A stretch of DNA of 31,042 nucleotides from positions 1-31,042 of IMG/VR virus record IMGVR_UViG_3300009605_000075; one strand, 5' to 3'. Under the pieces are notes generated by a model, which ran no database searches, had not been told where the DNA came from, and saw only the letters and a program-made list of their open reading frames with translations. Positions 4,152 through 31,042 of the stretch are shown here, piece by piece; the first letter of the stretch is position 1; the number at the start of each line of letters is the position of its first letter. This DNA comes from a virus. Made by a program: the position numbers and the translations under genes.

Positions 4152-5666
4152 CTAGTAGTAATCCCCCTTGCGGGTCAGTTTTGGCTCGTCATCTGCCTCG
4201 TCGCTGCCGAGACTTAGAAAGCCGCCCTGTCTGAATCTTAACAGCGCCTGGGTAGATGAATCGACGAGATCGTCATGCTCCCCTGCGGGGAATGCCGCAA
4301 ACTCGTTCATCACCTCTTCCGCGAAGCGGTGTTCAGGACACCACACCACCCCGGACGCAAACAGGTCTGCCACGGCGTTAACCCTGGCGATCTTGTCATT
4401 TCCCCGTGATGGAGTAAATTCGGAAACCGGAATGCCCATCGCCCTTAATTCAAAGATCAATGGCATGCCAGCCGCTTTCGCCTCGACAATAAACGCATCA
4501 GGTTGTACCTCCTGATACTTCTCATAGGCGGTTTTCTTGAGTTCTGGAAATTCAAGGCGCTCCTTGAATGCATCCAGCAGGATGATATTGGGTGTGGTTA
4601 TCCCCTCATCATTGGGTTTTGAGAAAACACCCCATGTGGTGCAGGCGGAATAGTCCGACCGCTGGGTCTTGAGAAATGCCGTGTCCCATGACTGGATAAC
4701 AAAATCACACTGTGGCGGGGAATCCGGTTCCCAGATGTTCCACCACTCACGCTTTACCAGCGCGCCTTCCTCTGCGGTAGGGTTCTGCTGATACTGGGCA
4801 GTCCACTTCGACGCAGGTAGCTCATTACGCAAAGAGATAAGCTCTTCAAGCCCCCAGAACTGGGGCCATAAAGCCTTTTCTTTTGGTTGGTTTTCGTACA
4901 TAATTGCAGGAAATTCAATGACTTCCCACTGATCGGTTCCTTCCCGCTGAGTAGAAGCCTTGATGATCTTTCCTGTCAGGTCGCGCATGTGCCACCGTGT
5001 CATAACGATGACAATTGCACCTCCTGGTTGTAAACGCTGGCGAGGGCCGGATGTATACCAGTCATAGGTTTTATCAAATACCGAGGGATCAGCGCTTTGA
5101 CCTTCCTGCTCACTATGAGGGTCGTCAATGATAAGCAGGTCTGCACCTTTACCGGTAACCGCACCACCAACACCGATAGCGAAGTATTCACCGCCTTTGT
5201 TGGTACTCCAGCGCCCAGCCGCTTTGGAGTCAGCCTGTAATGCCAGCTCTGGGAAAATTTTCTTGAAATCTACGTCATCGACGAGGTTACGAACCTTTCT
5301 GCCGAAACCAACTGATAACTCCGCGGTGTGGGCAGTCTGAATAACCTTCCTGTCAGGATACTGCCCCAGGAACCATGCAGGCAGAAGATAAGAGGCAAAC
5401 TCACTCTTGGTATGCCGCGGCGGCATATTAACAATCAACCGCTTCAACTCACCACGCGAAATACGCTCAAACGCATCCGCCATGATCTTGTGATGCTCAC
5501 CGTCTATGAACGCAGGCCACATCATCCTTACAAAATCAAGAAAACTGCCTCTGCCAGCCTCACGCCGGGTAGCGTCATCAAGCTCTTCAAGCAGCGCCAG
5601 AATCTCATGCTGATCAGGCAATGTCATATTATCAAGATCAGCAACCAGTTCCGGGCTTATGTTCAC
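4152..5666 (-). CDS. terL: terminase large subunit (ATPase and nuclease)
   Basis: 504 aa, the packaging motor that pumps DNA into the prohead through the portal and cuts the concatemer. The ATPase half has a deviant Walker A MPPRHTKS (81-88), Walker B DLLIIDDPH (176-184) and coupling motif MTRWH (222-226). The RNase-H-like nuclease half has the expected acidic residues: QSWDTA (Asp328), FIVEAKAAG (Glu395) and AGEHDDLVDS (Asp465/466). Length is normal and both halves look intact. The ATG is preceded by AGGA five bases upstream. Unusually, terS lies more than 500 bp upstream instead of abutting it. Confident call. Confidence 0.95.
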   Translation of the reverse strand: MNISPELVADLDNMTLPDQHEILALLEELDDATRREAGRGSFLDFVRMMWPAFIDGEHHKIMADAFERISRGELKRLIVNMPPRHTKSEFASYLLPAWFLGQYPDRKVIQTAHTAELSVGFGRKVRNLVDDVDFKKIFPELALQADSKAAGRWSTNKGGEYFAIGVGGAVTGKGADLLIIDDPHSEQEGQSADPSVFDKTYDWYTSGPRQRLQPGGAIVIVMTRWHMRDLTGKIIKASTQREGTDQWEVIEFPAIMYENQPKEKALWPQFWGLEELISLRNELPASKWTAQYQQNPTAEEGALVKREWWNIWEPDSPPQCDFVIQSWDTAFLKTQRSDYSACTTWGVFSKPNDEGITTPNIILLDAFKERLEFPELKKTAYEKYQEVQPDAFIVEAKAAGMPLIFELRAMGIPVSEFTPSRGNDKIARVNAVADLFASGVVWCPEHRFAEEVMNEFAAFPAGEHDDLVDSSTQALLRFRQGGFLSLGSDEADDEPKLTRKGDYY

Positions 5667-6666: not shown

Positions 6667-6842
6667 GCTGTGTTTACTCCAGCCTGATTCGATTGGAGTG
6701 AGGATACACTGCCGAGAGCCCCGCTGCAACGCGAGGGAAAACCGGACCGCCGCTGACGGCCTTCTGAGACCGTCCGCTAGACGATCCACTTGCCCTTAGC
6801 ACTACTATTAATTCTTTAACCATCATCAGCAGGAGTGATTGT

Positions 6843-6926
6843 GTGAAGGAAAATATCAGAGACCATATGCAAATAATCCAGTTATTAGGCGTGATAATTG
6901 TTGCGCTCATAGGCAATAGGGAGTAG
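6843..6926 (+). CDS. possible 27-aa membrane peptide at the start of the early region
   Basis: A GTG preceded by GGAG at good spacing opens a 27-codon frame. Its centre IIQLLGVIIVALIGN is a clean single hydrophobic helix flanked by charged residues (MKENIRDHM and RE). It lies just upstream of the Fur-like dyad in the divergent region between terS and the early operon. Too short to assign to a family, and it could be chance, but the ribosome-binding site plus the hydrophobic stretch is suggestive. Confidence 0.3.
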   Translation: MKENIRDHMQIIQLLGVIIVALIGNRE

Positions 6927-6955
6927 ACTTCCCTCAGTAGTTAATTTCAACCAAA

Positions 6956-6970
6956 TGAGAATGATTCTCA
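6956..6970. promoter_or_regulatory. Fur-box-like 7-1-7 dyad
   Basis: TGAGAAT-G-ATTCTCA is a perfect inverted repeat with the same 7-1-7 geometry as the Fur consensus TGATAAT-N-ATTATCA, matching 12 of 14 arm bases. It lies 60 bases before the first well-supported early gene (7030). Fur is the iron-responsive repressor of many bacteria. Binding here is inference. A phage-encoded repressor with a similar dyad is the alternative, but no such gene is visible. Confidence 0.5.
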
Positions 6971-7029
6971 ATAAGGAAAATGAGGCGAGGCGGACAGGGA
7001 TAGCCGCCAAACCTCAAAGGACCAACGAT

Positions 7030-7377
7030 ATGCCTACATCATCAACAGCCGAATTAGTGGCGACCCCCGCACAAGCCGAATCATGGGTAACAACCCAAGG
7101 TACTTTCCATCGTGGCAATCCCCGCGCATGGTTGCAGTTCAACCACACGCACCCCGCAGCTCAGGCTGGCTTCGTTGCCAACGCCCGCTACGACATCGAG
7201 TATCTGCCCGACTTCGTTATATTAACCCTCAAGCCAGAAGGCAAACGCAAGGTCAGCAATACCTCGCGTGGCGCTACTCTGGATATCAACTGCCGTGCAA
7301 CCAAGCAGTACGATTGGACCCGCGGTATCTACTGGCAAATCGAGCAGGGACTCATCATCATCCGCGCCGCTGTCTAG
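7030..7377 (+). CDS. small beta-rich protein, possibly AbrB/SymE-like
   Basis: 115 aa from an ATG carrying the recurrent early leader (AAAGGACCAACGAT before ATG). The longer frame from 6955 would begin inside the Fur-like dyad and is rejected. The pattern GNPRAWLQF ... AGFVANARYDIEYLPDFVILTL.PEGKRKVS ... WQIEQGLIII resembles small phage proteins with a swapped-hairpin beta-barrel, as in AbrB or SymE. That comparison is from memory and weak. It could be a DNA-binding early regulator. It is the first sizeable gene after the divergent promoter region. Confidence 0.65.
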   Translation: MPTSSTAELVATPAQAESWVTTQGTFHRGNPRAWLQFNHTHPAAQAGFVANARYDIEYLPDFVILTLKPEGKRKVSNTSRGATLDINCRATKQYDWTRGIYWQIEQGLIIIRAAV

Positions 7378-7403
7378 ATTCAATCCACCATAGCCGATCC
7401 AGA

Positions 7404-7430
7404 ACCCAGCCCAGCGCTGGGTTTCTGGGT
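7404..7430 (+). repeat. structured UTR hairpin, copy A
   Basis: Outer stem ACCCAG/CTGGGT encloses the palindrome CCCAGCGCTGGG and a TTT bulge. It is preceded by a conserved TCAATCCACCATAGC segment starting at 7379 and followed by GGTGA and then the ribosome-binding site of the 69-aa gene. Copy B (8197) is identical across about 34 bases. Copy C (8673) keeps the fold with changed bases. Confidence 0.6.
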
Positions 7431-7449
7431 GAGAGACACAGGAGAATAT

Positions 7450-7659
7450 ATGAATATCTTAATCGACATTGTTATTAAACGAGTGACCGGCAACGAATCT
7501 GGATTTGCCAACACACCAACTGGCTGGGGAATATTTCTGAATCACCACGGCCAATCTGAACTGGCCCACTTCTATGCCACGCAGCAACAGGCAACAGAAC
7601 AGGCCGAATACATTGTAGCGAAAGCTAGAAGGGGCGAGCTCACTATCGATTGCCGATAG
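7450..7659 (+). CDS. 69-aa early protein of unknown function
   Basis: Starts at ATG 7450 (MNILIDIVIKRVTG), which has AGGAG six to seven bases upstream; an in-frame ATG 21 bases earlier lacks one. Predicted fold is a beta-strand pair (GWGIFLNHHGQSELAHFYATQ) followed by a helix (QQATEQAEYIVAKARRG), a compact alpha/beta architecture common in small phage proteins. No metal or catalytic motif. It lies immediately downstream of hairpin copy A, so expression may depend on that element. Confidence 0.6.
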   Translation: MNILIDIVIKRVTGNESGFANTPTGWGIFLNHHGQSELAHFYATQQQATEQAEYIVAKARRGELTIDCR

Positions 7660-7693
7660 AGAGACCAACCCATCATCAACGAGGACTAACGAT

Positions 7694-7924
7694 ATGTTAC
7701 CAGCCCAATATTGTCGAATAGAGACCGCCGCCGGAGGCGTCGGATGTACTCATAGGGAATTCATCCGCGCATGCCACGGAGTGCTAAGTGCCAAAGGTAA
7801 ATCCAGAGGCAGCCGCACTTGGCGGCATGAATGGATTCGAGAGGGATTTACCCATCTCGAAAATTCTAGAAGACTTTTCTATAAGGTCGCGACCGGCTCA
7901 GCTTCTCGGTGCATCATCAATTAA
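7694..7924 (+). CDS. 76-aa basic early protein
   Basis: The ATG carries the early-gene leader CAACGAGGACTAACGAT, which selects this frame over an overlapping frame starting at 7788. The protein begins MLPAQYCRIETAAGG and has a basic helical centre (SAKGKSRGSRTWRHEWIREGF) and an Arg-rich end. Three or four Cys residues are present but not as paired CxxC. No family recognised. The overlapping frame stays open through to the 7947 gene, so a frameshifted ancestor cannot be excluded. Confidence 0.5.
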   Translation: MLPAQYCRIETAAGGVGCTHREFIRACHGVLSAKGKSRGSRTWRHEWIREGFTHLENSRRLFYKVATGSASRCIIN

Positions 7925-7946
7925 TCAACCAACGAGGACCAACGAT

Positions 7947-8159
7947 ATGACTGACACTTGCCCACTATGTAAAGAATCTGGACTAACTCCAGATGACTTT
8001 GAAAACCTGCCATTCCCTAGTGACTTTCTTCACACTAGATTTAACACGCCACAGACTCCAGCTAATACATTAGTGTGTATCGGTTGCGCGGAAGGCGAAT
8101 TTGAAAAGAAGTGCGATGAAGCTGCACAGCGTTATCTGGATGATTTGGTAGGCACTTAA
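7947..8159 (+). CDS. 70-aa zinc-ribbon-like early protein
   Basis: Starts at the ATG with leader CAACGAGGACCAACGAT. Two CxxC pairs, CPLC (5-8) and CIGC (44-47), frame an acidic, proline-containing middle, the usual layout of a small zinc ribbon. The C-terminus is a helix (FEKKCDEAAQRYLDDLVG). A structural zinc site and a protein-protein or nucleic-acid binding role are inferred. The start is independently supported because the same 33-base leader-plus-start sequence recurs at 8229-8261. Confidence 0.6.
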   Translation: MTDTCPLCKESGLTPDDFENLPFPSDFLHTRFNTPQTPANTLVCIGCAEGEFEKKCDEAAQRYLDDLVGT

Positions 8160-8196
8160 TATCAAATAACCTTCAATCCACATAGCACAAACCAGA

Positions 8197-8223
8197 ACCC
8201 AGCCCAGCGCTGGGTTTCTGGGT
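8197..8223 (+). repeat. structured UTR hairpin, copy B
   Basis: Identical hairpin to copy A: outer ACCCAG/CTGGGT around CCCAGCGCTGGG with a TTT bulge. It is preceded by TCAATCCACATAGC (from 8173) and followed by GGTGAAAG and the early leader of the 133-aa gene. It begins 37 bases after the previous stop. Confidence 0.6.
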
Positions 8224-8249
8224 GAAAGCAACCAACGAGGACCAACGAT

Positions 8250-8651
8250 ATGACTGACACTACCATTAGAAGGGACTGCCCCCCATTTGTCCCCTACCTG
8301 AGACTGCGTGTTGTTGCAGAACAATACAGAACAAGTTTAAGGGCGAATGACAATGACGAGGCTCCAAGTTACAGGGGCAGCGACGGAATCAGGCGAAGGA
8401 TTAATTCTGATTATTACGTTGTCGCGGAATTCTCGGACGGCCAATCATTTGCCGGACCAACGCGGTTCGGCACTCGAACTCAAGCTGATGCAATAGTCAA
8501 GTATCTCCGCAACCTTAACTATTTTTTCGATCCCAAGGACGCAGAGAAATTTAACTGGAAACCATACACCAGCTTGCCATCTGAGACTCTACACGAAGAG
8601 CTCCAGCGTAGGGGTTATCACCGACAATGGATAGGGGATAACAAGGACTAA
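8250..8651 (+). CDS. 133-aa early protein of unknown function
   Basis: Starts at the ATG preceded by CAACGAGGACCAACGAT. Has a predicted beta-sheet N-terminal half (YYVVAEFSDGQSFAGPTRFGTRTQADAIVKYL) resembling the small alpha/beta fold of the 69-aa neighbour (GWGIFLNHHGQSELAHFYATQQQATEQAEYIV), and a C-terminal part with TLHEELQRRGY. The first 25 residues are variable. The two may be distant paralogues. No enzymatic motif visible. It is flanked on both sides by copies of the UTR hairpin. Confidence 0.6.
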   Translation: MTDTTIRRDCPPFVPYLRLRVVAEQYRTSLRANDNDEAPSYRGSDGIRRRINSDYYVVAEFSDGQSFAGPTRFGTRTQADAIVKYLRNLNYFFDPKDAEKFNWKPYTSLPSETLHEELQRRGYHRQWIGDNKD

Positions 8652-8672
8652 CCCTCAACCCACATAGCCCAA

Positions 8673-8704
8673 ACCGAGCCCCGCTTAACTGCGGGTTCCT
8701 CGGT
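8673..8704 (+). repeat. structured UTR hairpin, copy C (diverged)
   Basis: Same architecture as copies A and B with compensated changes. The outer stem is ACCGAG/CTCGGT instead of ACCCAG/CTGGGT, the inner stem is CCCGC/GCGGG with loop TTAACT, and the bulge is TTC. The upstream TCAACCCACATAGC (from 8655) and downstream GGTGAAAG are conserved. Base-pair-preserving differences are evidence that the fold is selected. Confidence 0.6.
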
Positions 8705-8753
8705 GAAAGACATCGGTACAGGCTCTGCCTGGAACCGGGCAAAAAATAAATCC

Positions 8754-8778
8754 GTACACCGCAGTGGTTGGTGTACTT
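8754..8778 (+). repeat. dyad and 18-bp repeat also present at 14359-14376
   Basis: GTACACC and GGTGTAC form a 7-bp inverted repeat around a 9-base loop. The right part, GCAGTGGTTGGTGTACTT (8761-8778), occurs identically at 14359-14376 between two minus-strand genes. Here it lies 18 bases before the start of the 109-aa gene. It may be an operator or a recombination footprint. Confidence 0.45.
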
Positions 8779-8796
8779 CAACCGAGGACAAACATA

Positions 8797-9126
8797 ATGA
8801 CATACACAATTGATGACATCGAGAAGGGGTATTGCCAGATAGATGGCGGCACTGTCTATGAATGTTACTTTCCGAAAGAGCGCCAGTACTGGAACGGCTG
8901 GGCTGTCCCTGCCGGACTAACGGCAAAATCATTGTGCGATTTTATCGATGAATCGATGAGGTGTTACAGCCCGACAGATAACCCCGAAGACCACATAGCA
9001 CGGGATGAATGGTGCGTTGACTTGCTGACCAGCATTCGCCCCTATGAGTATGGCGGCCTCACCATCTACGCAGTTGGTGACGGCCTCATCTGGGATGAAG
9101 TGAATCAATCAGGAGAACCAATATGA
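8797..9126 (+). CDS. 109-aa acidic early protein
   Basis: Starts at ATG 8797 (MTYTIDDIEKGYCQ), after the leader CAACCGAGGACAAACATA; an in-frame ATG 33 bases upstream lies inside the repeat and is rejected. The protein is acidic and aromatic-rich (YWNGWAVPAGLTAKSLCDFI, RDEWCVDLL). The mix of strands and helices suggests a small globular fold. No known motif. Its stop overlaps the next start as ATGA. Confidence 0.6.
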   Translation: MTYTIDDIEKGYCQIDGGTVYECYFPKERQYWNGWAVPAGLTAKSLCDFIDESMRCYSPTDNPEDHIARDEWCVDLLTSIRPYEYGGLTIYAVGDGLIWDEVNQSGEPI

Positions 9127-10629: not shown

Positions 10630-10633
10630 CCCG

Positions 10634-10695
10634 ATGCCCCTCAACTCAGGCGCTGCATAACTTATATAACAAGGCAGGCGTGAGGCGAGGGGCAT
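10634..10695 (+). other. 62-base long imperfect stem-loop
   Basis: ATGCCCCTC pairs with GAGGGGCAT (9 bp). Inside lie CTCA/TGAG (4 bp), a short internal loop, and CTGC/GCAG (4 bp) around an AT-rich loop containing TTATATAA. It starts four bases after a stop codon and ends 21 bases before the next ATG. No U-tract follows, so a simple intrinsic terminator is unlikely. It could be an RNase III processing site or a transcript-stabilising or regulatory element. Confidence 0.5.
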
Positions 10696-10716
10696 AAACT
10701 CAACCACAGGACTAAT

Positions 10717-13571: not shown

Positions 13572-13742
13572 ATGGATATACTGGAAGCATTAACGCGGAT
13601 ATGGAATGACCTTGACCGGACATGGAACGGGGATGAACGCCCCGACGATTGGGACACCACTTGCGAAGCAATGCACGCTATAATGGAAGAGGTTGGCGTG
13701 AGGTACGACGAGAACGGTGACTTGATCCCCGATGAGATTTAA
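13572..13742 (+). CDS. 56-aa acidic early protein, last of the block
   Basis: ATG 13572 has GAGGGGA upstream; an alternative ATG at 13557 overlaps the previous stop by ATGA. Sequence MDILEALTRIWNDLDRTWNGDERPDDWDTTCEAM is acidic and Trp-rich, predicted helical. No family recognised. Ends at the convergent spacer. Confidence 0.5.
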   Translation: MDILEALTRIWNDLDRTWNGDERPDDWDTTCEAMHAIMEEVGVRYDENGDLIPDEI

Positions 13743-13767
13743 AGGCGCGGGGTGGTTGAGCGGCGCT

Positions 13768-13842
13768 GGCGTGACGCCGTCAAAGGATGTTGGTTCCCCG
13801 CAATTCGCAGTCATGCGAACTCCGACTAGCATCCATCACGCC
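13768..13842 (+). other. nested stem structure in the convergent spacer
   Basis: Outer GGCGTGA/TCACGCC (7 bp) encloses GGATG/CATCC, then GTTGG/CCGAC with one wobble, then a perfect TTCGCA-GTCA-TGCGAA hairpin. Total length 75 bases. An alternative GCGGGG/CCCCGC pairing exists at the 5' side. It could terminate or protect the plus-strand early transcript. Confidence 0.45.
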
Positions 13843-21255: not shown

Positions 21256-21950
21256 TCCTCATTGCTATGGAGACCAGCGGGGTTACGCGCCGTGCCTTCC
21301 AGCGCTATGCGAAAGCCCACAATCTGAAGTGGGAAGTATGGAGCTGTGATCTCCTCCCCGCGGACGACGACGAGACCGAACACCATCTGGTTAAGGATGC
21401 CATTGAAGTAATAGACTCACGCCAGTGGGATTTAATCCTTGCCCATCCTCCCTGTACGGCTATTGCCGTGAGCGGTAATGCCTGGTACGGGCGGGGAATG
21501 CCAAAGAATGATGAACGCATCGAGGCGATCCGGTGGACAACAGAGTTATGGGAGCTGATCAAGCGCCGCAGTAAACATGCGGTCATGGAGAATCCGGTAG
21601 GGGTTCTTCCCTTCAGGCCGGACCAGTATGTCCAGCCCTACCAGTTCGGACATCCCGAATCAAAGAAGACAGGACTGTGGTTGCACAACCTTCCCCTGCT
21701 GGAAGACACCAACAATGTCAAGGATGTGTTCGACAAGTTACCCAAGAACCAGCAGCAGAGACTGCATTATCTTTCACCTTCCAAGGATCGGTGGAAGCTG
21801 CGGTCACAGACTTACGAGGGGATAGGCGAGGCAATTGCCAATCAGTACGGGGACTACATCAATCCCCATCACGGTACAAGAATGATTATCCCCTTCTCCT
21901 CCGCATTCCTACCTCTTTGGAATGCATCTAGTCGCGATACACCGGACTGA
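21252..21950 (+). CDS. cytosine-C5-methyltransferase-like protein (single domain)
   Basis: 232 aa from TTG 21252, overlapping the previous stop. MILIAMETSGVTRRAF matches a Rossmann-type first strand. LAHPPCTAIAVSG (64-76) has the PPC motif with the catalytic-type Cys68, and MENPVGVLP (112-120) resembles the ENV motif of C5 methyltransferases. The motifs follow one another without a large target-recognition domain, and the length is typical of a compact phage subfamily usually annotated as DNA methyltransferase or hypothetical. The substrate could be DNA but is unproven. Its 3' end overlaps the giant gene's stop by 23 bases in convergent orientation. Confidence 0.65.
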   Translation: MILIAMETSGVTRRAFQRYAKAHNLKWEVWSCDLLPADDDETEHHLVKDAIEVIDSRQWDLILAHPPCTAIAVSGNAWYGRGMPKNDERIEAIRWTTELWELIKRRSKHAVMENPVGVLPFRPDQYVQPYQFGHPESKKTGLWLHNLPLLEDTNNVKDVFDKLPKNQQQRLHYLSPSKDRWKLRSQTYEGIGEAIANQYGDYINPHHGTRMIIPFSSAFLPLWNASSRDTPD

Positions 21951-24900
21951 GCGGACCCGCCTCAAACGCTGGCAGATCGGCAAGCTCTTTGATCAGAGGC
22001 ATCAGAGCCAGATGATCGTTAATGGCGGCATCGAGTCTGTCGATATATTCCCGCTTCTCTGAGGCCGGAATATTCATCTTCATAATTCCATCACGTTCAT
22101 TACGCCGCTTCGCCAGCCAACGGGACGTTTCATCCAGCTCACCCCCAAGATCAATCAGATGCTGGCGACCTACCATATAACGCAACAGTTCTTCACTTCT
22201 GCCGTCCTGATCCAGACTTCCCAGAGTACTGACTACCTTCCTCACTTCCTCATTGAGCTCGTAGAAATCTTCCACCAGCCCACGCCCCTCCGGCAGCGCA
22301 AAGAAGCGCTTCAATACCGGCGCGGTGGAGAGTGTCATGGATGGCATCTTCTTGCTCTGGTCACCCACAAAAGCCTCTGTCCGCATGATGTGGTCAAGCA
22401 AATCCAGACCATAGATACCAATGGTTCCTGCATACCCTTCTAGGACATGCTGTATTTTCATCGGGCTCATGTTGAGCGCCTTACCGATCATCGAGGCAAA
22501 TTCACTGGTGTTGAAACGAGCTTGTAAGCCCTCCTCAAACTGCTGGTCAATATAGAAGGGAACCACCGGACGACCCGTGTAGAAGTTATGATTCAGTGCA
22601 GCCTCGACAATCGGTGCAATAAGCTGAACACCGCCCAACGGATTGAATTCAAGAGTCGTCCCTACTCCACGCTGTATAGTCCCTTTGAGTTCACGCCGAG
22701 TGGTGTCACCGAAAGCCGTATCCAGCATTTTCTCCGGTATGGTCTTGAACAGAAGCCCGACTTCAAACGGCACAGGGATTTTAATCGTGGGTCCAAATGG
22801 ATTAGGGATCAGCCAGTTGTTGTCCTTCTCGTAGTCGTCCGCCTCTTCATAGTCTTCAGTGTCACTGACCATCGTCCAGTACGCCGCCGTCAGTGCCAGC
22901 AGGCTTAACCCGCGGAGAAAAAACCGCTTCTGGATTTGAGCCTTACTGGCCTCGGTGTTGGCCGAGTATCTTCCCCGTGCTGCGCGATAGAAAACATCCA
23001 GACCCTGTATTCTCGCATTGAGAAAAGGAATGGCAGTAGTGATCATACGCATAAGCTGATTGTTTCCACGCCTTCCGAAATTCAGAATCTCGATGGCCTG
23101 GTATATGGCTTCAGCCTGATTGCCGGTGCGTGCCAGTGTGTCGTCATAGACTGCCTTACGGGTAGCGGCATCCGAGCGTGTGGTCCCCTCTCCCAGCATG
23201 TCCCAAGCCCGCTGGAAAGTCTGGTTGAATATCTTGGAACCGGCTCCCGAATAATCCACCCCGCGCCTGCGGGCTTCCTTCTTGAGGAAATCACTGAGAT
23301 TGCCACGGTCATAGAGCTTGTCATAGCCGGTCACTATGCCCAGCTTCTCCATATTGGTGATATCCCCCACAAAATTCTTGAAGGTAGATACCACAGGGGT
23401 GAAGTCGGCCCCCGATGTGGTGTAGGCAGACAGGGAGTCACGCAACATATTAACTACCATGAAACCCGGATCACGGGTCACCATTTCCCGCAACACTTTG
23501 GCAGGAACGCCGGTAATATTATTTATAAGCGCTATCGGCCCGCTCTCAGGCATCGTTTTCATCGCCTCGAACAGGAGTGGATCGTCGATAATAAATCTTC
23601 TTCTTTTACCCGCCACACGGATATTGTAAACAGACTGGGCCACCGAGGCTGTCAGCTTTTTATTCAGTGGGATTTCCCGCGCCTGTCCCAGATATACCAA
23701 ATCCCTTATCAGCCTCTGGTCCGCCACGTTCTTCATTCCCATCTCGATGGCGGTGGTGTAGTTCCTCACAACAGAATCCAGCAACGGCACATCCATCTTG
23801 CGTTTGCTGCCCTTGAGCTTCTTGAGAGTAAGCTCACGTTGTTCAGAGGTCAGGCTGTCTGGAACCGAATCCATATTGGAAAACATATTGATGAAGTCTA
23901 TGTCCTCATTCCCCATCTCTTCCAGCTCGCCCCGCGCCTCACGATAGAAGGGATAATAAACCGCGTTATCACGCCAGATATTACCCTGCTCTTCGCTGAT
24001 GAGACCCGTGTCCTTCATGAATTCAATCACATGTTCGTTATATGCCTGGTACATGTCATACCATTCCCTGATGTACGACTCTCCGCTCTCAGGGTTAATA
24101 AAACTGTCCGCTGCGGCTTCAGCCTTTAGCAGCGCTGCATCAATCTCGTCAGGGGGGATCGGGGTATTGCGTCTTTGCTTGGGAGGCTTGTTCTTGTCCT
24201 CCTCTATGATCTGTTTCGAGCGAATGGCAACCGCATAAAACTTTGCCGGAGCTTCAAGATCACCGTGGATATTACCGCCCTTCCCCTGCGGGCTGGGCAT
24301 CAGAATAGACTGTACCTCGACCATTCCATCGACCTTATTGCCCTTATACATAAAATCCTTGACCTGAAATGTACCGTTCTTGTACTCCGCCTGGCCGTGA
24401 TTCATGGCAGCCGAGGAAAAAGCATCAGCGCGGTCTGCCATAACCTGAGCATACCTGTAGGCAGTATCTCCCAGCATCTGCACACCCTCTTTATCCAAGG
24501 TCTGTGCTTCGCGATCTGCGGTCACTGTCATTTTACGGGTGTGCTTATCCACCACACCCTGCCTTGTTTTGGTCAGCAGCTTGCCCCACCACTCACCTAC
24601 ACGGAACTGGGTGAACACCTCGACGTAGGAACGCTTCTCCTCCTTCTCATCGATATACTTGTCCATCGTTTCCTGAATGTCGGGAGCAAGCTCAGGGGTA
24701 TTGTTGCGGGAATATAAAAAGTCTTCATCCTCGGAAAGTTTGGCTCCGAGGTCGGGGTTACGGCCTACGGTCTGAGCGTCAGGGGAAGCCTTGACACTGT
24801 AAGGAGGAACAGAACCGGCAGGCGAATCCTCAACGTCCTTGAGATTAGCCTCAAGGGCTTCTTCTACCTTGGCTTCAGGAATAGGAGTGGGAGGGGGTCT

Positions 24901-27900
24901 GACAATAGGAGGAGGTATTAACTTCCTGCGAACAGGACGCTTCAGGTTTTTCGGGGTGAATCCGATCCTTTCCGCTTCTTGGAGGTAGTAGTCCCAGAAC
25001 GGTTCATAAAGCGTACTGTTGATGAGCCGGAGTAAACCGGATGGTCCGGTGGGGCCGGTTCTATCCCCCTCGATTTCTGTAAGTACTCTTCGATAGCTTT
25101 TATGTCCACGATACTTGCCTTGCTGACGATATGAGTTATAGACGTATTCTACAGATTGATCAAAAGAATTCAACACTTGATCTGCAAATTCCTCCCTCAT
25201 TTCCTCTGTGTAAGGAGCAACCGTATCGGTCATTGTCCTGCCGTCTATAAATCGTAAGACAGTGCCATTTTCACCGAGGGTAAAATTAAGACCATCCCAA
25301 TCATTCTCCGGGTTAGCTTTAGCCGCTACGGCCATAATCTCTTCCTGAGAAAACTTTGAACCGTCCGCTTTTGTAACCGCCATACCTAATTGACCGTCTT
25401 CAACGCCATAAGTAGGCCGCTCAATAGCCACCCCGTCTTGTAACAAGCCATCGCCAAGTACGATCCCAATAAACTCAGCCTGCTCAGGTGTGGCGTTTAA
25501 CAACGCAATCTGAATGTTAGGCTCTACTCCTTCATAGCTTCCAACCGCGGTCTCCACCGTGTGAGGGATACCCATCTTTCTGATGAAAGGTATTTGCCCA
25601 TCCTCGTCAGTGATAACATCCACCGCCCCGTCATTGAAGACAATCATATCTTCGAGGGTTACCGTCGCTGGAAAACCGTAATCCCTCTCATTCCCCGGCT
25701 GGGCCGAAGCAAGTACTAGCGGAGCCCGTCGTTTTGCCAGCTCGGTAAGCTCTTCGATTTGCAGATAATTAGTGTAGGGATGAGTTTTTACCTTGGTGGT
25801 GTTACGAGGCCGCACTCCTTTTTCCAGCGCCGGAGTCAGAGGGGTGTCCTTGTCAAACAACCCTTCCTTTACCTGTTCCTCTATGACCTTGATCTGCGGT
25901 GCGGCTGCGCTGCTCGCTGCCTTCCACGTTCCAGACCCTGCGCTCTTGCCTGGTTCCTTCGTCATCAGATTCTTTTTACCATAAAACCACAACGCGGCCT
26001 GCATCTGGTTAGGCGTTACACCAAATTCATCGGCCAGATAACTGGTAAGGTACTGAGCATAACGGTAGGCACGGTCAGTCGGAATCTGGGCGCTATCAGT
26101 TAACTTGCCTGTCTCCTTGTCCGCATCCTTGCGCCGCCACCCGAAAACCCGCGCCATGTGTATATCATGCACACTAAAAGGATTAAAAACATTATTCTGC
26201 CTGTCCTGAATGAGCTGCATGTAGGTGGTGGTTTTGAGTCCTCCTCCAACGAGCCCTGTGGTATACATCTTGGCAATGCGCTCAATCTGAGGCAGGCTGA
26301 TCATCATCCCTCGATCACCAGGCTTCTTCCGTTCTTGGACGGCCTTTATAAAGGCGGCCGTATCAGCAACCGGATCAACCTCTCTGGCTATCGCCATAAT
26401 ATGAAGCGTATCTTGTAAATTATCTGCCACCGGATTTTGGGCAGAAGTGATACCGAAGATCACAGACGCTTCCTCGATATTAGCCGCACCAACTATTTCC
26501 GTCAGCCCCTTAGCAAACTGGTCATACCATTGAAGATCATCAACCCCCTCCCTCAATCCTGTCTCAGCCATTTGTCTGAGTTCTGCCAGAGGAGTGGGTC
26601 TTACATTACCGTCACGCCTCATGTCTGGAATTTTCTTGCCCGCTTTGTTTGGAGTGGGACGCGGACGACGGGTTGGAGCGCCTGGAACCTTAGCCAGTTG
26701 CGCCGAAGTAGGGTTGCCTCCTGTGCGTTCCAGTAAAGCGGCTAAGGCTCTTTCCACCTCACCCATCGGAAGCACAGGGAGTTTTTCCTCCGGCCTAGGA
26801 ACACGCACCTCTTTTGAGGGGGGAGCGCGTCTAACCTCGGACACATCTTCCTCCTCTGATGCCGCCGCAGTTCTCGCTGCATAGTCCTCATTCAGCGCTC
26901 GGACAACAGCGAAGTTGGGTGGACTCTTCTCGAAAGAGATCATCACATCCCCAGACGCTGCCAGTGCCGCATCAAGCCATGAAGGCTTCGTGCCGGAACT
27001 TCCTCCTAATAAATAATATTTTACCCAGTCCGCGAATCGCTCATACAATGTTCTGCCACGATAAACCTGTTGCGACATCCACTGCTGCAACTCACCGCTA
27101 GTCAATGCCCTTACGAAAAACTCCTCTTGGCTGTCAGTCGCCTTCTCCAGTGCATTAAACAAGGCATTCTTATCCATACCCCCCATAGCCCGACGGGCAA
27201 TAGGTCTGAATTCCTCCCATACATTTTTGAACTGATCGATTGCCTCAGCCGCTTCCTGCGTAAGCAATTCATTTTCTTCCATGAATGCCCTGTTGAAAGA
27301 TGCCTCGGTTAAGGACTGATAACGCACCATTACATTGGCGTGCAGGCTTTCATGCAATAGCGTATCTATATCCATTCCCGCTTTACCGTACAATGCGAGA
27401 GTACCTGGCACTTCGAAGGCTGTCATCGATCCAGCCCAAGTCATGTCTTTCCGTTGTAGCACCAAGCGAATACCAGTGGACGGCAAGAAGGAAGCTATAT
27501 CTGCGGCCAGCGCCCGCACCTCTTCCGGCCCGTTAGCTGCGATATCCTCGATAGCCGCCCGCAGTGCTTGCGCTCCCCGCGTTCCGTCAGGATCATCTTC
27601 AACAACCGGATCATGCGGCGTTCCGGGCATAATCCGTGATTCGCCTGCCTCCAACAAAGTCATCTGGGAATCGGTAAGAGGGGTTTTAAGAATTTCAGGG
27701 CTTACCGGCTTGGCTCTTCCCAGCTCCGCTTCCTGTGCCTGGGTGTATGCCGCTCGTTGATAGGTAGCTATAGTGGCTGCGCTTCCCATGCCAACCCCAA
27801 GCATCTTGATGAAGCGCCGTCGTCCGCGAGTCTCCACTTCCTCTATGTCTTCTTCGATCCTCCCAACCTGACGCTGCAACTCACGATCAATCACCCCTAT

Positions 27901-30900
27901 CTCTCTGAAGCCCCTCCTGTAAAACCTCCTACGGTCCGAGCCATATCCACCATCCGTCTTGAGGGCGAGCATTTCAAGGAGACTCAGTGGATTCTCCACC
28001 AAGTCCGTTCCATGCAGAGCTCTTTCAAGAAGTGCAGGGTATTGGTCAGGGGCTTGCAACTCGGCAATGCGGGGAACCCAGAAGTCTCTCTGCTCAAGAT
28101 TACTATCGGCAGTGGCCCTTCCCCGTCTAACCTCGGACACCTCCTCTTCCTCGATCACAGGCGGCCGGAGCCTACCTTCGGCATCGCCACCGTACCCTAA
28201 CCAGTCACGCAATGTTCCTAAACGGGTTCCTTCTTTAAATGTTTTTTGGAAGGGTCGGTTTTTCCTTGTAAAGCGCTCTAATGAACCTAGACCTACTACT
28301 GTTATACCTGTGTCGGTATCTACGATATACCCCGGATCGCTCCCCGCTTCTCCGTTTATTACCGCCCTTCGGGCTTCCTCCACCGTATCTATTTCTATAT
28401 CACGCACATAGTCTTCATTTTCTAAAGCTCTGCCTATTTGAGCTAATGAAAGTTTTGTGGATAAAGGACCACCCTGTTCGGCAATTTCTTCTGCGGTTTT
28501 TCCTCGACCCCTTCTAGCCTCCGACACCTCCTCTTCCACTACCTCCGGCGGGGCATCAGCCATCTTGGCCGTGGGCCGCCAGTCAGGGTCCAAAGCCTGC
28601 ACCTCCAGCGTCCTCTGTTTCTTCCGTGTCTCTCTCAGGGTCCGTATCGGACCTACCTCCCGTGCGCCTATCTCGCCACTCTCAATAGCCTCGATGAGGC
28701 CGTTAAAATTTCTAAAGCCTGACCCACGCAGAAAGTTCATCATCGACTCAAAGAACGTCCTGATCCGGTTGATCAGGGTACGCGGCTTACCCCCGATACG
28801 ACGACCATCCCGAATCATGTCCGCAATAGCCTCTTCCATTACAGCCGTTGGTTTGTCTGCAAGGTCCGGGTAAAGGACAGCAGCTCTCTCTAGGAAGGTT
28901 TCATTTTCCCCCCGATACAAGGGGCTGCTCTTCGGAACCTTTGTCCTCCCCGCCGTGCGTTCCAGCAGAGCCCATTCATCAGCGGTCCACAAATCCAGCT
29001 CACGCATCGCATGAACCGTTTCATGATTGAGAAGGTCTTTGATCTCCTCCCAAATCTCATCAGGGGTCGCCCCCTTTTCCTTCATTGAAACAAGTTTGTC
29101 TATCCCGAAAAATATTTCATTAAGTCCGGCCTTGTAATAGCCCTGTGTTTCTTTCCCAACCTCCTTGGGAAGAAAGACAAGGTTACCTTCGCTGTCTCGA
29201 TTGAAGTGATACAGGGCTTCAACGATGGATATCTTGGTCTTGTCCAGACCGATCCGGTCAAGCTCCTTACGCGCCAGCGCCTCAAGGTCAGCCCTTAATT
29301 CAGCCTGATCATACTGCACGCCTGGGATATGAGTGGGAGCAGTCGCAGCGGGGGGCAACTCCAGTGGCTTTTCAAGGACGTCGTCGGTGATGCGGCCGCT
29401 CTCACGCAGGTCTTTAACAATTCTTTCAACCTTCTGAACGCGCCGTGGGTCCGCGGGATCAATGTTTGCGGCCTCGGCAACAAGATCAGCATCTAGCTCT
29501 CCGGTTCTTCCTCTGCCGCCAGCGCCCTCACCCTCATTAATATAGGCTTCAGCAGACTTGAACTGCGAGGTGGTATAGGAAGGAACCTGGAAGTTCGGTA
29601 GTCCCTGTTTGGTATGCAGCACCGGCAGTTTACGAATCTTCTGGTAGAGATATTTCATCTCCCCGGAATCCATGTCCTCAATACTTTCCTTGCCCACAAA
29701 CGCCTTGGCCATCGTCCTGATCGCCGGAGAATTCAGCTCATTGGTTATTCCCTTACGCTCCAGCAGGGTCTTGATCCGGTCCTTGCCGATTTCAATATTC
29801 TTAAAGACAAGCTCATCAACCGCCGAATCACGCTTACTGTTAAGGCGCTCGGCTATAGTGACGGCCTGTTCGGGAGTCTTTATCCTTCTCTTCTTCATGG
29901 GGAAGGTTCCGTCCCTCCTTACCTTTCCCCTTATCTCATAGGTATCAATAACCTCACCGGCTGAACTGACCACAATTGGCCTGCCTTTCCTTGTTCCACG
30001 CGGCTTGGTAGTGGTGGCCTCATAGGTCTCGGTTTCGAGTGTGGCTCCGGTTCCTATATCTCCCAGCTTTCCAAAATCCTTACCCAGAACATCCTTGGCT
30101 TCTTCAATGCTGAAAGTATTTGTTTCCGGTAATCCCTGAGCCAGCCTTTTCCGGTTGGCCCGTTGTGCCGCCGTGAGCTTTTGGACGAGCTCCGCTTCGG
30201 TCGCCACCCGACCCATCTGTTTGTTCATTGCCTGGTCGGCACTGAGTGTTTCGTCAAACCCTTTATCTATGGTGGTTTCAGCCGCCATATTGAGGGCATC
30301 GGTGGTTACCTCGTTAGCCCGCGGATTGATAATGCTGTCGCCGTAGATACCGAGCGTGGTTTCCGTGGGGATATCATAGTCTTCCGCCGACGTTACAATA
30401 ACCGTACTGGTTGCATTACGAGCAGCCTGATCTACGAGCTGGCTATTGAGCTCTCCAGCCACCACGGCTGCCTCTCCCTGTGTAGGCAGTGGAACCCCAT
30501 AGCTGACACCTTCTGAATCACGCACGCGGAAAACGGTCTTGGTGGTAGCCATTGGCTGCCCTGCGTTGGGACCGTAGTTTGGAGTTTCTGCCGCGAGTTC
30601 TTCAGGGGTGAGATCAACGGTGATCTCTTCTACATCAAAGGAAGTGGCACTGGGAAAGTCTGGACCGATGGTTCGGGCAAGTGTCTTGCCATAGACAACC
30701 ATGTCATCGGTTTCGGGGGGAATGGTAGAGGTATCTATTGGGGTTGTGGGTTCGGCTGTGGTGACTGGCGGACGGTCATACTGAGCCCTGCGAGCCGTAT
30801 TGGCTTCCTCTCGGTCAGCTCTGTCTGCGCGTTCTTTCTCCAGTTGGGAATCACTGAAGGTGCGGGTACGGCGTGCGCCTACACCGGCCAAGGCAAGGTC

Positions 30901-31042
30901 AGCCACAAAGCCTGCTGCACCACCTATGGTGAAGTTATCGAGAGCATCTTCCCCGTAATCATGGTCGGGGTTATAAATCTTTTGCTCCCCCAAGTCCTGC
31001 ATTAAGCCAGCGATCACTTCCTGTACGCCTTCTTTCCCCGCA
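21928..31042 (-). CDS. giant polyvalent virion-type protein, N-terminus outside window
   Basis: Visible frame of at least 3,037 codons; the 5' end is off the right edge, since the frame stays open past a GTG at 31017 (residue 1 below). In order: low-complexity N-terminal part with repeated basic/acidic modules; a zincin motif HETVH (665-669) with downstream EEAIADMIRD; a Tat-like RRRFIKMLGVGMG (about 1064); a second zincin HESLH (1222-1226) followed by DSQEEFFVRAL; a helical module (about 1490-1685, WYDQFAKG ... VTPNQMQAALWF); further unknown modules; and a long C-terminal region (about 2390-2960, NITGVPAKVLREMVTRDPGFM ... AIPFLNARIQG ... PIKIPVPF-type) that I recognise as large polyvalent protein-associated domain 38 (LPD38). 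One hydrophobic segment near 2700 (LSLLALTAAYWTMV). Such proteins are carried in the virion and ejected with DNA. Confidence 0.85.
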   Translation of the reverse strand, partial: AGKEGVQEVIAGLMQDLGEQKIYNPDHDYGEDALDNFTIGGAAGFVADLALAGVGARRTRTFSDSQLEKERADRADREEANTARRAQYDRPPVTTAEPTTPIDTSTIPPETDDMVVYGKTLARTIGPDFPSATSFDVEEITVDLTPEELAAETPNYGPNAGQPMATTKTVFRVRDSEGVSYGVPLPTQGEAAVVAGELNSQLVDQAARNATSTVIVTSAEDYDIPTETTLGIYGDSIINPRANEVTTDALNMAAETTIDKGFDETLSADQAMNKQMGRVATEAELVQKLTAAQRANRKRLAQGLPETNTFSIEEAKDVLGKDFGKLGDIGTGATLETETYEATTTKPRGTRKGRPIVVSSAGEVIDTYEIRGKVRRDGTFPMKKRRIKTPEQAVTIAERLNSKRDSAVDELVFKNIEIGKDRIKTLLERKGITNELNSPAIRTMAKAFVGKESIEDMDSGEMKYLYQKIRKLPVLHTKQGLPNFQVPSYTTSQFKSAEAYINEGEGAGGRGRTGELDADLVAEAANIDPADPRRVQKVERIVKDLRESGRITDDVLEKPLELPPAATAPTHIPGVQYDQAELRADLEALARKELDRIGLDKTKISIVEALYHFNRDSEGNLVFLPKEVGKETQGYYKAGLNEIFFGIDKLVSMKEKGATPDEIWEEIKDLLNHETVHAMRELDLWTADEWALLERTAGRTKVPKSSPLYRGENETFLERAAVLYPDLADKPTAVMEEAIADMIRDGRRIGGKPRTLINRIRTFFESMMNFLRGSGFRNFNGLIEAIESGEIGAREVGPIRTLRETRKKQRTLEVQALDPDWRPTAKMADAPPEVVEEEVSEARRGRGKTAEEIAEQGGPLSTKLSLAQIGRALENEDYVRDIEIDTVEEARRAVINGEAGSDPGYIVDTDTGITVVGLGSLERFTRKNRPFQKTFKEGTRLGTLRDWLGYGGDAEGRLRPPVIEEEEVSEVRRGRATADSNLEQRDFWVPRIAELQAPDQYPALLERALHGTDLVENPLSLLEMLALKTDGGYGSDRRRFYRRGFREIGVIDRELQRQVGRIEEDIEEVETRGRRRFIKMLGVGMGSAATIATYQRAAYTQAQEAELGRAKPVSPEILKTPLTDSQMTLLEAGESRIMPGTPHDPVVEDDPDGTRGAQALRAAIEDIAANGPEEVRALAADIASFLPSTGIRLVLQRKDMTWAGSMTAFEVPGTLALYGKAGMDIDTLLHESLHANVMVRYQSLTEASFNRAFMEENELLTQEAAEAIDQFKNVWEEFRPIARRAMGGMDKNALFNALEKATDSQEEFFVRALTSGELQQWMSQQVYRGRTLYERFADWVKYYLLGGSSGTKPSWLDAALAASGDVMISFEKSPPNFAVVRALNEDYAARTAAASEEEDVSEVRRAPPSKEVRVPRPEEKLPVLPMGEVERALAALLERTGGNPTSAQLAKVPGAPTRRPRPTPNKAGKKIPDMRRDGNVRPTPLAELRQMAETGLREGVDDLQWYDQFAKGLTEIVGAANIEEASVIFGITSAQNPVADNLQDTLHIMAIAREVDPVADTAAFIKAVQERKKPGDRGMMISLPQIERIAKMYTTGLVGGGLKTTTYMQLIQDRQNNVFNPFSVHDIHMARVFGWRRKDADKETGKLTDSAQIPTDRAYRYAQYLTSYLADEFGVTPNQMQAALWFYGKKNLMTKEPGKSAGSGTWKAASSAAAPQIKVIEEQVKEGLFDKDTPLTPALEKGVRPRNTTKVKTHPYTNYLQIEELTELAKRRAPLVLASAQPGNERDYGFPATVTLEDMIVFNDGAVDVITDEDGQIPFIRKMGIPHTVETAVGSYEGVEPNIQIALLNATPEQAEFIGIVLGDGLLQDGVAIERPTYGVEDGQLGMAVTKADGSKFSQEEIMAVAAKANPENDWDGLNFTLGENGTVLRFIDGRTMTDTVAPYTEEMREEFADQVLNSFDQSVEYVYNSYRQQGKYRGHKSYRRVLTEIEGDRTGPTGPSGLLRLINSTLYEPFWDYYLQEAERIGFTPKNLKRPVRRKLIPPPIVRPPPTPIPEAKVEEALEANLKDVEDSPAGSVPPYSVKASPDAQTVGRNPDLGAKLSEDEDFLYSRNNTPELAPDIQETMDKYIDEKEEKRSYVEVFTQFRVGEWWGKLLTKTRQGVVDKHTRKMTVTADREAQTLDKEGVQMLGDTAYRYAQVMADRADAFSSAAMNHGQAEYKNGTFQVKDFMYKGNKVDGMVEVQSILMPSPQGKGGNIHGDLEAPAKFYAVAIRSKQIIEEDKNKPPKQRRNTPIPPDEIDAALLKAEAAADSFINPESGESYIREWYDMYQAYNEHVIEFMKDTGLISEEQGNIWRDNAVYYPFYREARGELEEMGNEDIDFINMFSNMDSVPDSLTSEQRELTLKKLKGSKRKMDVPLLDSVVRNYTTAIEMGMKNVADQRLIRDLVYLGQAREIPLNKKLTASVAQSVYNIRVAGKRRRFIIDDPLLFEAMKTMPESGPIALINNITGVPAKVLREMVTRDPGFMVVNMLRDSLSAYTTSGADFTPVVSTFKNFVGDITNMEKLGIVTGYDKLYDRGNLSDFLKKEARRRGVDYSGAGSKIFNQTFQRAWDMLGEGTTRSDAATRKAVYDDTLARTGNQAEAIYQAIEILNFGRRGNNQLMRMITTAIPFLNARIQGLDVFYRAARGRYSANTEASKAQIQKRFFLRGLSLLALTAAYWTMVSDTEDYEEADDYEKDNNWLIPNPFGPTIKIPVPFEVGLLFKTIPEKMLDTAFGDTTRRELKGTIQRGVGTTLEFNPLGGVQLIAPIVEAALNHNFYTGRPVVPFYIDQQFEEGLQARFNTSEFASMIGKALNMSPMKIQHVLEGYAGTIGIYGLDLLDHIMRTEAFVGDQSKKMPSMTLSTAPVLKRFFALPEGRGLVEDFYELNEEVRKVVSTLGSLDQDGRSEELLRYMVGRQHLIDLGGELDETSRWLAKRRNERDGIMKMNIPASEKREYIDRLDAAINDHLALMPLIKELADLPAFEAGPLSPVYRD

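Follow-up and report, generated by a model that had tools for sequence, protein, structure and literature searches.

A three-copy intercistronic RNA element in the putative early operon of an uncultured marine phage, and other structured RNAs in comparable gaps of related phages

Introduction

Early mRNA of phage T7 contains bulged intercistronic RNase III hairpins between small early genes, with several of them per operon, and good RNase III substrates have a stem near two helical turns, i.e. about 20 bp. A different arrangement, consisting of a linear box and a hairpin in the early RNA, is found in the nut sites of phage lambda and the put sites of HK022; the order in nut sites is boxA-boxB-boxC. 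The T4-like phages harbor PeSL cassettes (Arbiol 2010, Comeau 2014, as cited in PMC4503421). In addition, intergenic hammerheads have been recorded in phages, and clustered hammerheads in native polycistronic RNAs cleave in vitro (PMC3088659). Here, we describe a repeated structured element of an uncultured phage, compare it with these systems, and show that other structured RNAs occupy the same kind of gap in related phages.

Results

The phage and its putative early operon

The window, i.e. the whole stretch of DNA that was analyzed, is a 31-kb piece of an uncultured virus genome. The product of its large terminase gene (4152-5666, - strand) shares 54-57% identity with its nearest relatives among phage records, which are phage 023Pt_psg01, Phage DSL-LC04 and the Pelagibacter phages HTVC023P/HTVC027P, and has dozens of relatives in IMG/VR, mostly with 75-88% identity. 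An operon of small + strand ORFans starts at position 7030, on the right-hand side of the terminase genes. The gene order suggests that this operon is an early one, and it is presumably transcribed as a single polycistronic RNA. No confident Pfam or PHROGs family could be assigned to any of the six genes around the three elements, named A, B and C, and protein relatives of the genes adjoining B and C were found only in the same phage. The features of this region are as follows.

7030-7377, + strand: ORFan of 115 aa without a confident family; its stop codon precedes element A
7379-7435, + strand: element A, with 5' box TTCAATCCACCATAGC, hairpin at 7399-7428 and tail GGTGAGAG
7450-7659, + strand: ORFan of 69 aa with SD AGGAG; follows element A
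7694-7924, + strand: ORFan of 76 aa; its flanking gaps lack the element
7923-7958, + strand: first copy of the 36-nt leader repeat (comprising SD, start codon and first codons), 97% identical to the second
7947-8159, + strand: ORFan of 70 aa; precedes element B and is missing together with B in contig L006
8172-8228, + strand: element B, with 5' box TTCAATCCACATAGC, hairpin at 8192-8221 (the same as in A) and tail GGTGAAAG
8226-8261, + strand: second copy of the 36-nt leader repeat, at the end of element B
8250-8651, + strand: ORFan of 133 aa, lying between B and C
8653-8709, + strand: element C, with 5' box CCTCAACCCACATAGC, diverged hairpin at 8674-8703 and tail GGTGAAAG
8753-8776, + strand: unrelated second hairpin (GTACACC...GGTGTAC), downstream of C and ahead of the following gene
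8797-9126, + strand: ORFan of 109 aa; follows element C

The region between the divergently oriented gene of the terminase small subunit and the early operon (6790-7030) holds the palindrome TGAGAATGATTCTCA, and tandem repeats of about 23 nt occur at the equivalent place in relatives. Elsewhere in the window, an ORF of 3029 aa (21928-31017, - strand) led us to consider N4-type hairpin promoters; close to its C-terminus, this ORF contains an LPD38 large polyvalent protein domain, and its identity as an RNA polymerase was not supported.

Three copies of a 57-nt element

A reading of this DNA from its letters alone (hereafter, the sequence-only reading) had pointed to three copies of an intergenic hairpin, and our analyses bear this out. 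The element is 57 nt long and its three copies, all on the + strand, each lie in a gap that separates a stop codon from the following start; they have in common the C-rich, G-poor 5' box TCAAyCCAc(C)ATAGC, a hairpin and the sequence GGTGArAG. The ungapped identity is 84% between A and B and 61% between C and A. In searches of the window, a profile of A and B recovers C at E = 7.6e-5, and C alone as query recovers B at E = 8.9e-5. The nine columns in which A and B differ are all outside the hairpin, and they correspond to fewer events because one insertion shifts several columns. Together, these data support the view that the untranslated gaps between the small early genes harbor a structured RNA present in duplicate, and the three copies probably arose by duplication.

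Predicted fold and paired changes

The predicted folds of A, B and C are more stable than expected, with z values of -3.3, -3.5 and -3.5, respectively, and none of the 200 dinucleotide shuffles made of the 62-nt stretch of each copy was as good. The outer stem of A and B is CCAGAA/TTCTGG (in A, 7399-7404 pairs with 7423-7428) and the inner stem is CCCAGC/GCTGGG, with a 5-nt loop (CCAGC) and a 1-nt 3' bulge (T); these hairpins of 12 bp are letter-for-letter identical. The hairpin of C has 10 bp, formed by the stems CCGAG/CTCGG (outer) and CCCGC/GCGGG (inner), with loop TTAACT and bulge TTC. Thus, it has diverged, yet occupies the same place and has a predicted stability equal to that of A and B. 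The outer stem originally proposed for A and B, ACCCAG/CTGGGT, shares bases with the inner stem, so that the two cannot coexist, and the three-base bulge ascribed to all copies is present in C only. An alternative, switch-like pairing of TTCAAyCCA with TGGGTGAA is weak (-7.1, -5.9 and -3.7 kcal/mol). With regard to the second hairpin at 8753-8776, the 91-nt stretch containing it does not clearly exceed shuffles in stability (z -1.2).

Comparison of B with C shows that each stem loses one A-T as a pair and that, in addition, one A-T is replaced by G-C; alternatively, when aligned without gaps, the outer stem contains three paired substitutions. The covariation rests on this single comparison because the hairpins of A and B are identical. 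When random changes of similar degree were introduced within the hairpin of B, the stability of C was reached in 0.34% of 5000 trials, and when they were introduced over the whole element B, this occurred in 4.7% of 3000 trials. Based on these trials, selection on pairing in A-C is likely, though not proven. Hence, the earlier proposal that pairing is kept while the sequence varies applies to C, and the identity of the A and B hairpins makes its support thin.

Position of the elements and nearby signals

The hairpin starts 21, 32 and 22 nt after the upstream stop codon in A, B and C, respectively, and ends 21, 28 and 93 nt before the next ATG, so that each copy sits between a stop codon and an SD-bearing start. 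Gaps of the same operon that lack the element measure 34 and 22 nt, and farther on the genes overlap or abut. In the predicted folds of A-C, the SD lies outside the stem and is free, and no pairing with the SD was found. Near A-C, the + strand contains no sigma-70-like promoter site, and there is no U-tract after the hairpin nor a terminator-like site at A-C on this strand, the stem being followed by GGTGA; the sole intrinsic-terminator match listed is a weak one on the - strand (8216-8196). The element had been taken for a 5' UTR element controlling the next gene. Considering that the hairpin is also close to the upstream stop and that the SD is uncovered, such control is only one possibility, and the data fit a 3'-UTR or intercistronic role just as well.

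Distribution of the element

Outside the window, all three copies were found only in contig 3300009413_000192, and A alone in contigs 3300008218_001263 and 3300025270_001903, all three contigs being nearly identical to the window. No match to the A-C covariance model (R1) was found among the terminase relatives, Rfam yielded only chance matches for A-C at both gathering and relaxed thresholds, and blastn of phage records gave no match to the element. Scans of viral and genome contigs for the box, the box plus tail, and the box plus spacer plus tail produced, besides the same phage, only hits that score as chance with R1, and the matches in the viral scan outside the same phage lack the hairpin; such exact pattern scans would miss strongly diverged copies. 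Thus, the outcome that the sequence-only reading had named as counting against its proposal, a lack of further homologues, was observed for this sequence family in each of the collections searched, the same phage species excepted. A-C are an ordinary kind of element with a new sequence family of their own, which is apparently limited to one phage species in these collections.

Structured RNAs in the gaps of related phages

Contig L042, one of the terminase relatives, contains two matches to the RAGATH-1 hammerhead (RF03152), both between small genes:

L042, 4691-4771, - strand: RAGATH-1 match of 30.0 bits
L042, 5313-5378, - strand: RAGATH-1 match of 26.3 bits

These scores are below the gathering score of 56.3, and correspond to E values of 0.009 and 0.06 in 1 kb. 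The structure at 5313-5378 has an intact core (CTGATGAG...CGAAA...GTC), whose TGA doubles as the stop codon of the upstream gene. The one at 4691-4771 has CCGACGAG instead, and its activity is doubtful because this departs from the hammerhead core consensus. The RNA is probably cut at this kind of intercistronic site in L042.

A different hairpin family, ATATCGAAG...CTTCTATTAT, with a fixed UC/UAU internal loop and a stem of 17 bp, is present in about a dozen contigs. Its carriers include L010, L012, L014, L018, L020/L045, L046 (two copies), L110 (two copies), L115 and L118, as well as the more distant L109/L112/L119/L120. The following members have been located:

L046, 2301-2361 and 3963-4024, - strand: ATATCGAAG hairpins
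L110, 3578-3639 and 3874-3935, + strand: ATATCGAAG hairpins
L010, 4050-4110, and L012, 3251-3313, - strand: ATATCGAAG hairpins
L018, 5080-5140, and L020, 5024-5084, - strand: ATATCGAAG hairpins
L115, 1078-1139, - strand: ATATCGAAG hairpin
L118, 3487-3549, + strand: ATATCGAAG hairpin

In an alignment of 11 sequences of this family, 98.4% of the cells pair, eight of the 17 pairs change on both sides, and the pairing score collapses once the partners are slid. Where an ORF could be called, the upstream stop is located 5-10 nt before the hairpin, and the next ATG follows 21-60 nt after it. The members of L018 and L045 have no Rfam match up to E 1. The model of this family (R2) did not match the window at E up to 1, and A-C are therefore not members of it. 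The parallel with the relatives is thus one of position only, because their elements are not homologous to A-C: these phages have in common the gap and its occupation by a stable or catalytic RNA, whose sequence differs.

Further structured elements were observed. An intergenic hairpin (CTCAACTCAGGCGCTGC...GCAGGCGTGAGGCGAG) at 10633-10696 of the window is very stable, and its internal loops are conserved; it has a homologue at L046:1518-1569 (- strand), and gave only chance miRNA matches in Rfam. At 13735-13814, there is a structured element of about 60 nt (GCGGGG...GGTTGAGCGG...CCCCGC) that is kept in relatives with paired changes in the end stem (L021:2687-2758, L045:527-598 and L018:459-521, all on the - strand); its 5' half is tRNA-like, yet ARAGORN made no call. 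Finally, the close relative L046 has a tRNA-Tyr (gta) within its early operon (2641-2723, - strand).

Discussion

We tentatively favor the view that A-C are intercistronic RNA elements that process or stabilize the polycistronic early mRNA. This view is favored by the existence of three stable copies, the pairing kept in C, the placement between a stop codon and an SD-bearing start, and the lack of a promoter, a U-tract and pairing with the SD at A-C, as well as by the other structured RNAs that relatives have in the same kind of gap. The hairpin would form 21-32 nt past each upstream stop in the operon RNA, where it could either serve as a cleavage site for a host RNase III-like double-strand nuclease, which would cut near the bulge, or block 3' exonucleases. 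The RNA would then be split into gene-sized units whose levels can differ, and the copies may, in addition, help small genes to be exchanged through homologous recombination. Since at least one occupant of this kind of site, a RAGATH-1-like structure of L042, is probably self-cleaving, the simplest function to propose is that the polycistronic early RNA is divided or protected. A-C themselves differ from RAGATH-1 in lacking both a hammerhead core and a ribozyme match. Provided that the operon is transcribed as presumed, A-C would resemble the RNase III sites of T7 in being bulged hairpins in intercistronic gaps, several per operon. On the other hand, their stem of 10-14 bp is shorter than about 20 bp, which counts against processing, and, unlike the T7 sites, they have a 5' box that is conserved in sequence. 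The stem differs between B and C, yet both conserve the 5' box and the GGTGAAAG tail; this retention of sequence suggests that a host or phage protein also reads the box and the tail. The conserved single-stranded 5' box counts against simple RNA protection, which leaves the box unexplained.

The conservation outside the stem (TCAAyCCACATAGC and the tail) as well as of the stem would also fit an operator hairpin, to which an RNA-binding protein of phage or host origin would attach so as to repress or activate translation of the following gene, and the hairpins of A and B end about 21-28 nt before the ATG. However, we consider this unlikely, as the SD is free in the predicted folds, the hairpin of C is 93 nt away from the start, and the loop varies (CCAGC versus TTAACT), unlike that of most operator hairpins. 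The order of linear box, hairpin and GGTG recalls nut sites, and like the lambda nut and HK022 put sites A-C have a linear box followed by a hairpin, the box being C-rich and G-poor. It is nevertheless rather improbable that A-C act at the level of transcription, be it as a nut/put-type antitermination site or as a pause or terminator site acting through the nascent RNA: no boxA-like sequence is apparent by eye, no N-like gene was identified and the neighboring genes are ORFans, the + strand has neither a U-tract nor a terminator-like site at A-C, and three copies within 1.3 kb of one operon exceed what nut/put sites need, their number and spacing being wrong. The possibility that A-C represent a novel ribozyme of the small self-cleaving kind, or are related to one, derives from the probable hammerheads in the analogous gaps of L042, and from the bulged two-part stem with conserved single-stranded flanks; this is very unlikely, since no Rfam ribozyme match was found even at E up to 10, inspection revealed no hammerhead core (CUGANGA with GAAA) in A-C, and known ribozymes require more than a single simple hairpin. 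CRISPR repeats can end in GAAAG/C, and the GTGAAAG that follows the hairpin in B and C resembles such ends. As solitary CRISPR repeat units are present in phage intergenic regions (PMC10651486), A-C might mimic a repeat and act as an RNA anti-CRISPR. We regard the chance of this as minimal, because a repeat is shorter than the conserved region of 57 nt, the long stem has a bulge, A has GAGAG at its end, the three copies are diverged and lie inside an operon, and no promoter was found upstream.

Another possibility is that A-C matter mainly as repeated DNA, as a PeSL-like recombination cassette for the swap or loss of small genes. A-C resemble the PeSL cassettes of T4-like phages in being a repeated stem-loop between early ORFans in a plastic region, with a possible role in gene swapping, and differ from them in having neither an early promoter after the hairpin nor a terminator U-tract, and in belonging to an unrelated phage group. 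Both the element and the 36-nt leader are duplicated, and the ORFan-rich block is absent from relatives. Moreover, in contig L006 position 7958 is joined directly to 8229 (up to repeat ambiguity), so that gene 7947-8159 and B are missing, and the join falls in the 33-nt exact part that the two leader repeats have in common. This arrangement is the expected product of recombination between the repeats, but it may also be an assembly effect, since only about 100 nt of this single contig lie beyond the join and another contig, L007, breaks inside the same repeat; a k-mer assembler could produce the same join. The mobility that had been suggested for the element thus finds weak support, in this one contig and in the shorter length (22-34 nt) of the gaps that lack the element. 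The promoter half of PeSL is missing, and A and B have no room for one because only 21-28 nt separate the hairpin from the ATG; the paired changes in C would also be left unexplained. We therefore consider a PeSL-like role to be of low probability. An integron attC site was likewise considered, as the hairpin comes right after the stop; its arms are not symmetrical.

Returning to the processing or stabilization of early mRNA, an extension of this idea, to which we attach little weight, is that, in the early operons of phages of this terminase clade, the post-stop gaps are a slot for interchangeable RNA-cutting modules, namely the hammerhead, the internal-loop hairpin and A-C, with A-C being a new catalytic or nuclease-recruiting class of RNA. 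The parallel in the related phages is a more interesting result than A-C themselves, which serve as a single worked example of the way in which early polycistronic RNA may be divided in uncultured marine phages. The positional parallel between simple hairpins and probable hammerheads offers a testable idea on the long-standing question of why phages keep self-cleaving RNAs between small genes, namely that such RNAs may be just one among several interchangeable means of cutting or protecting early mRNA.
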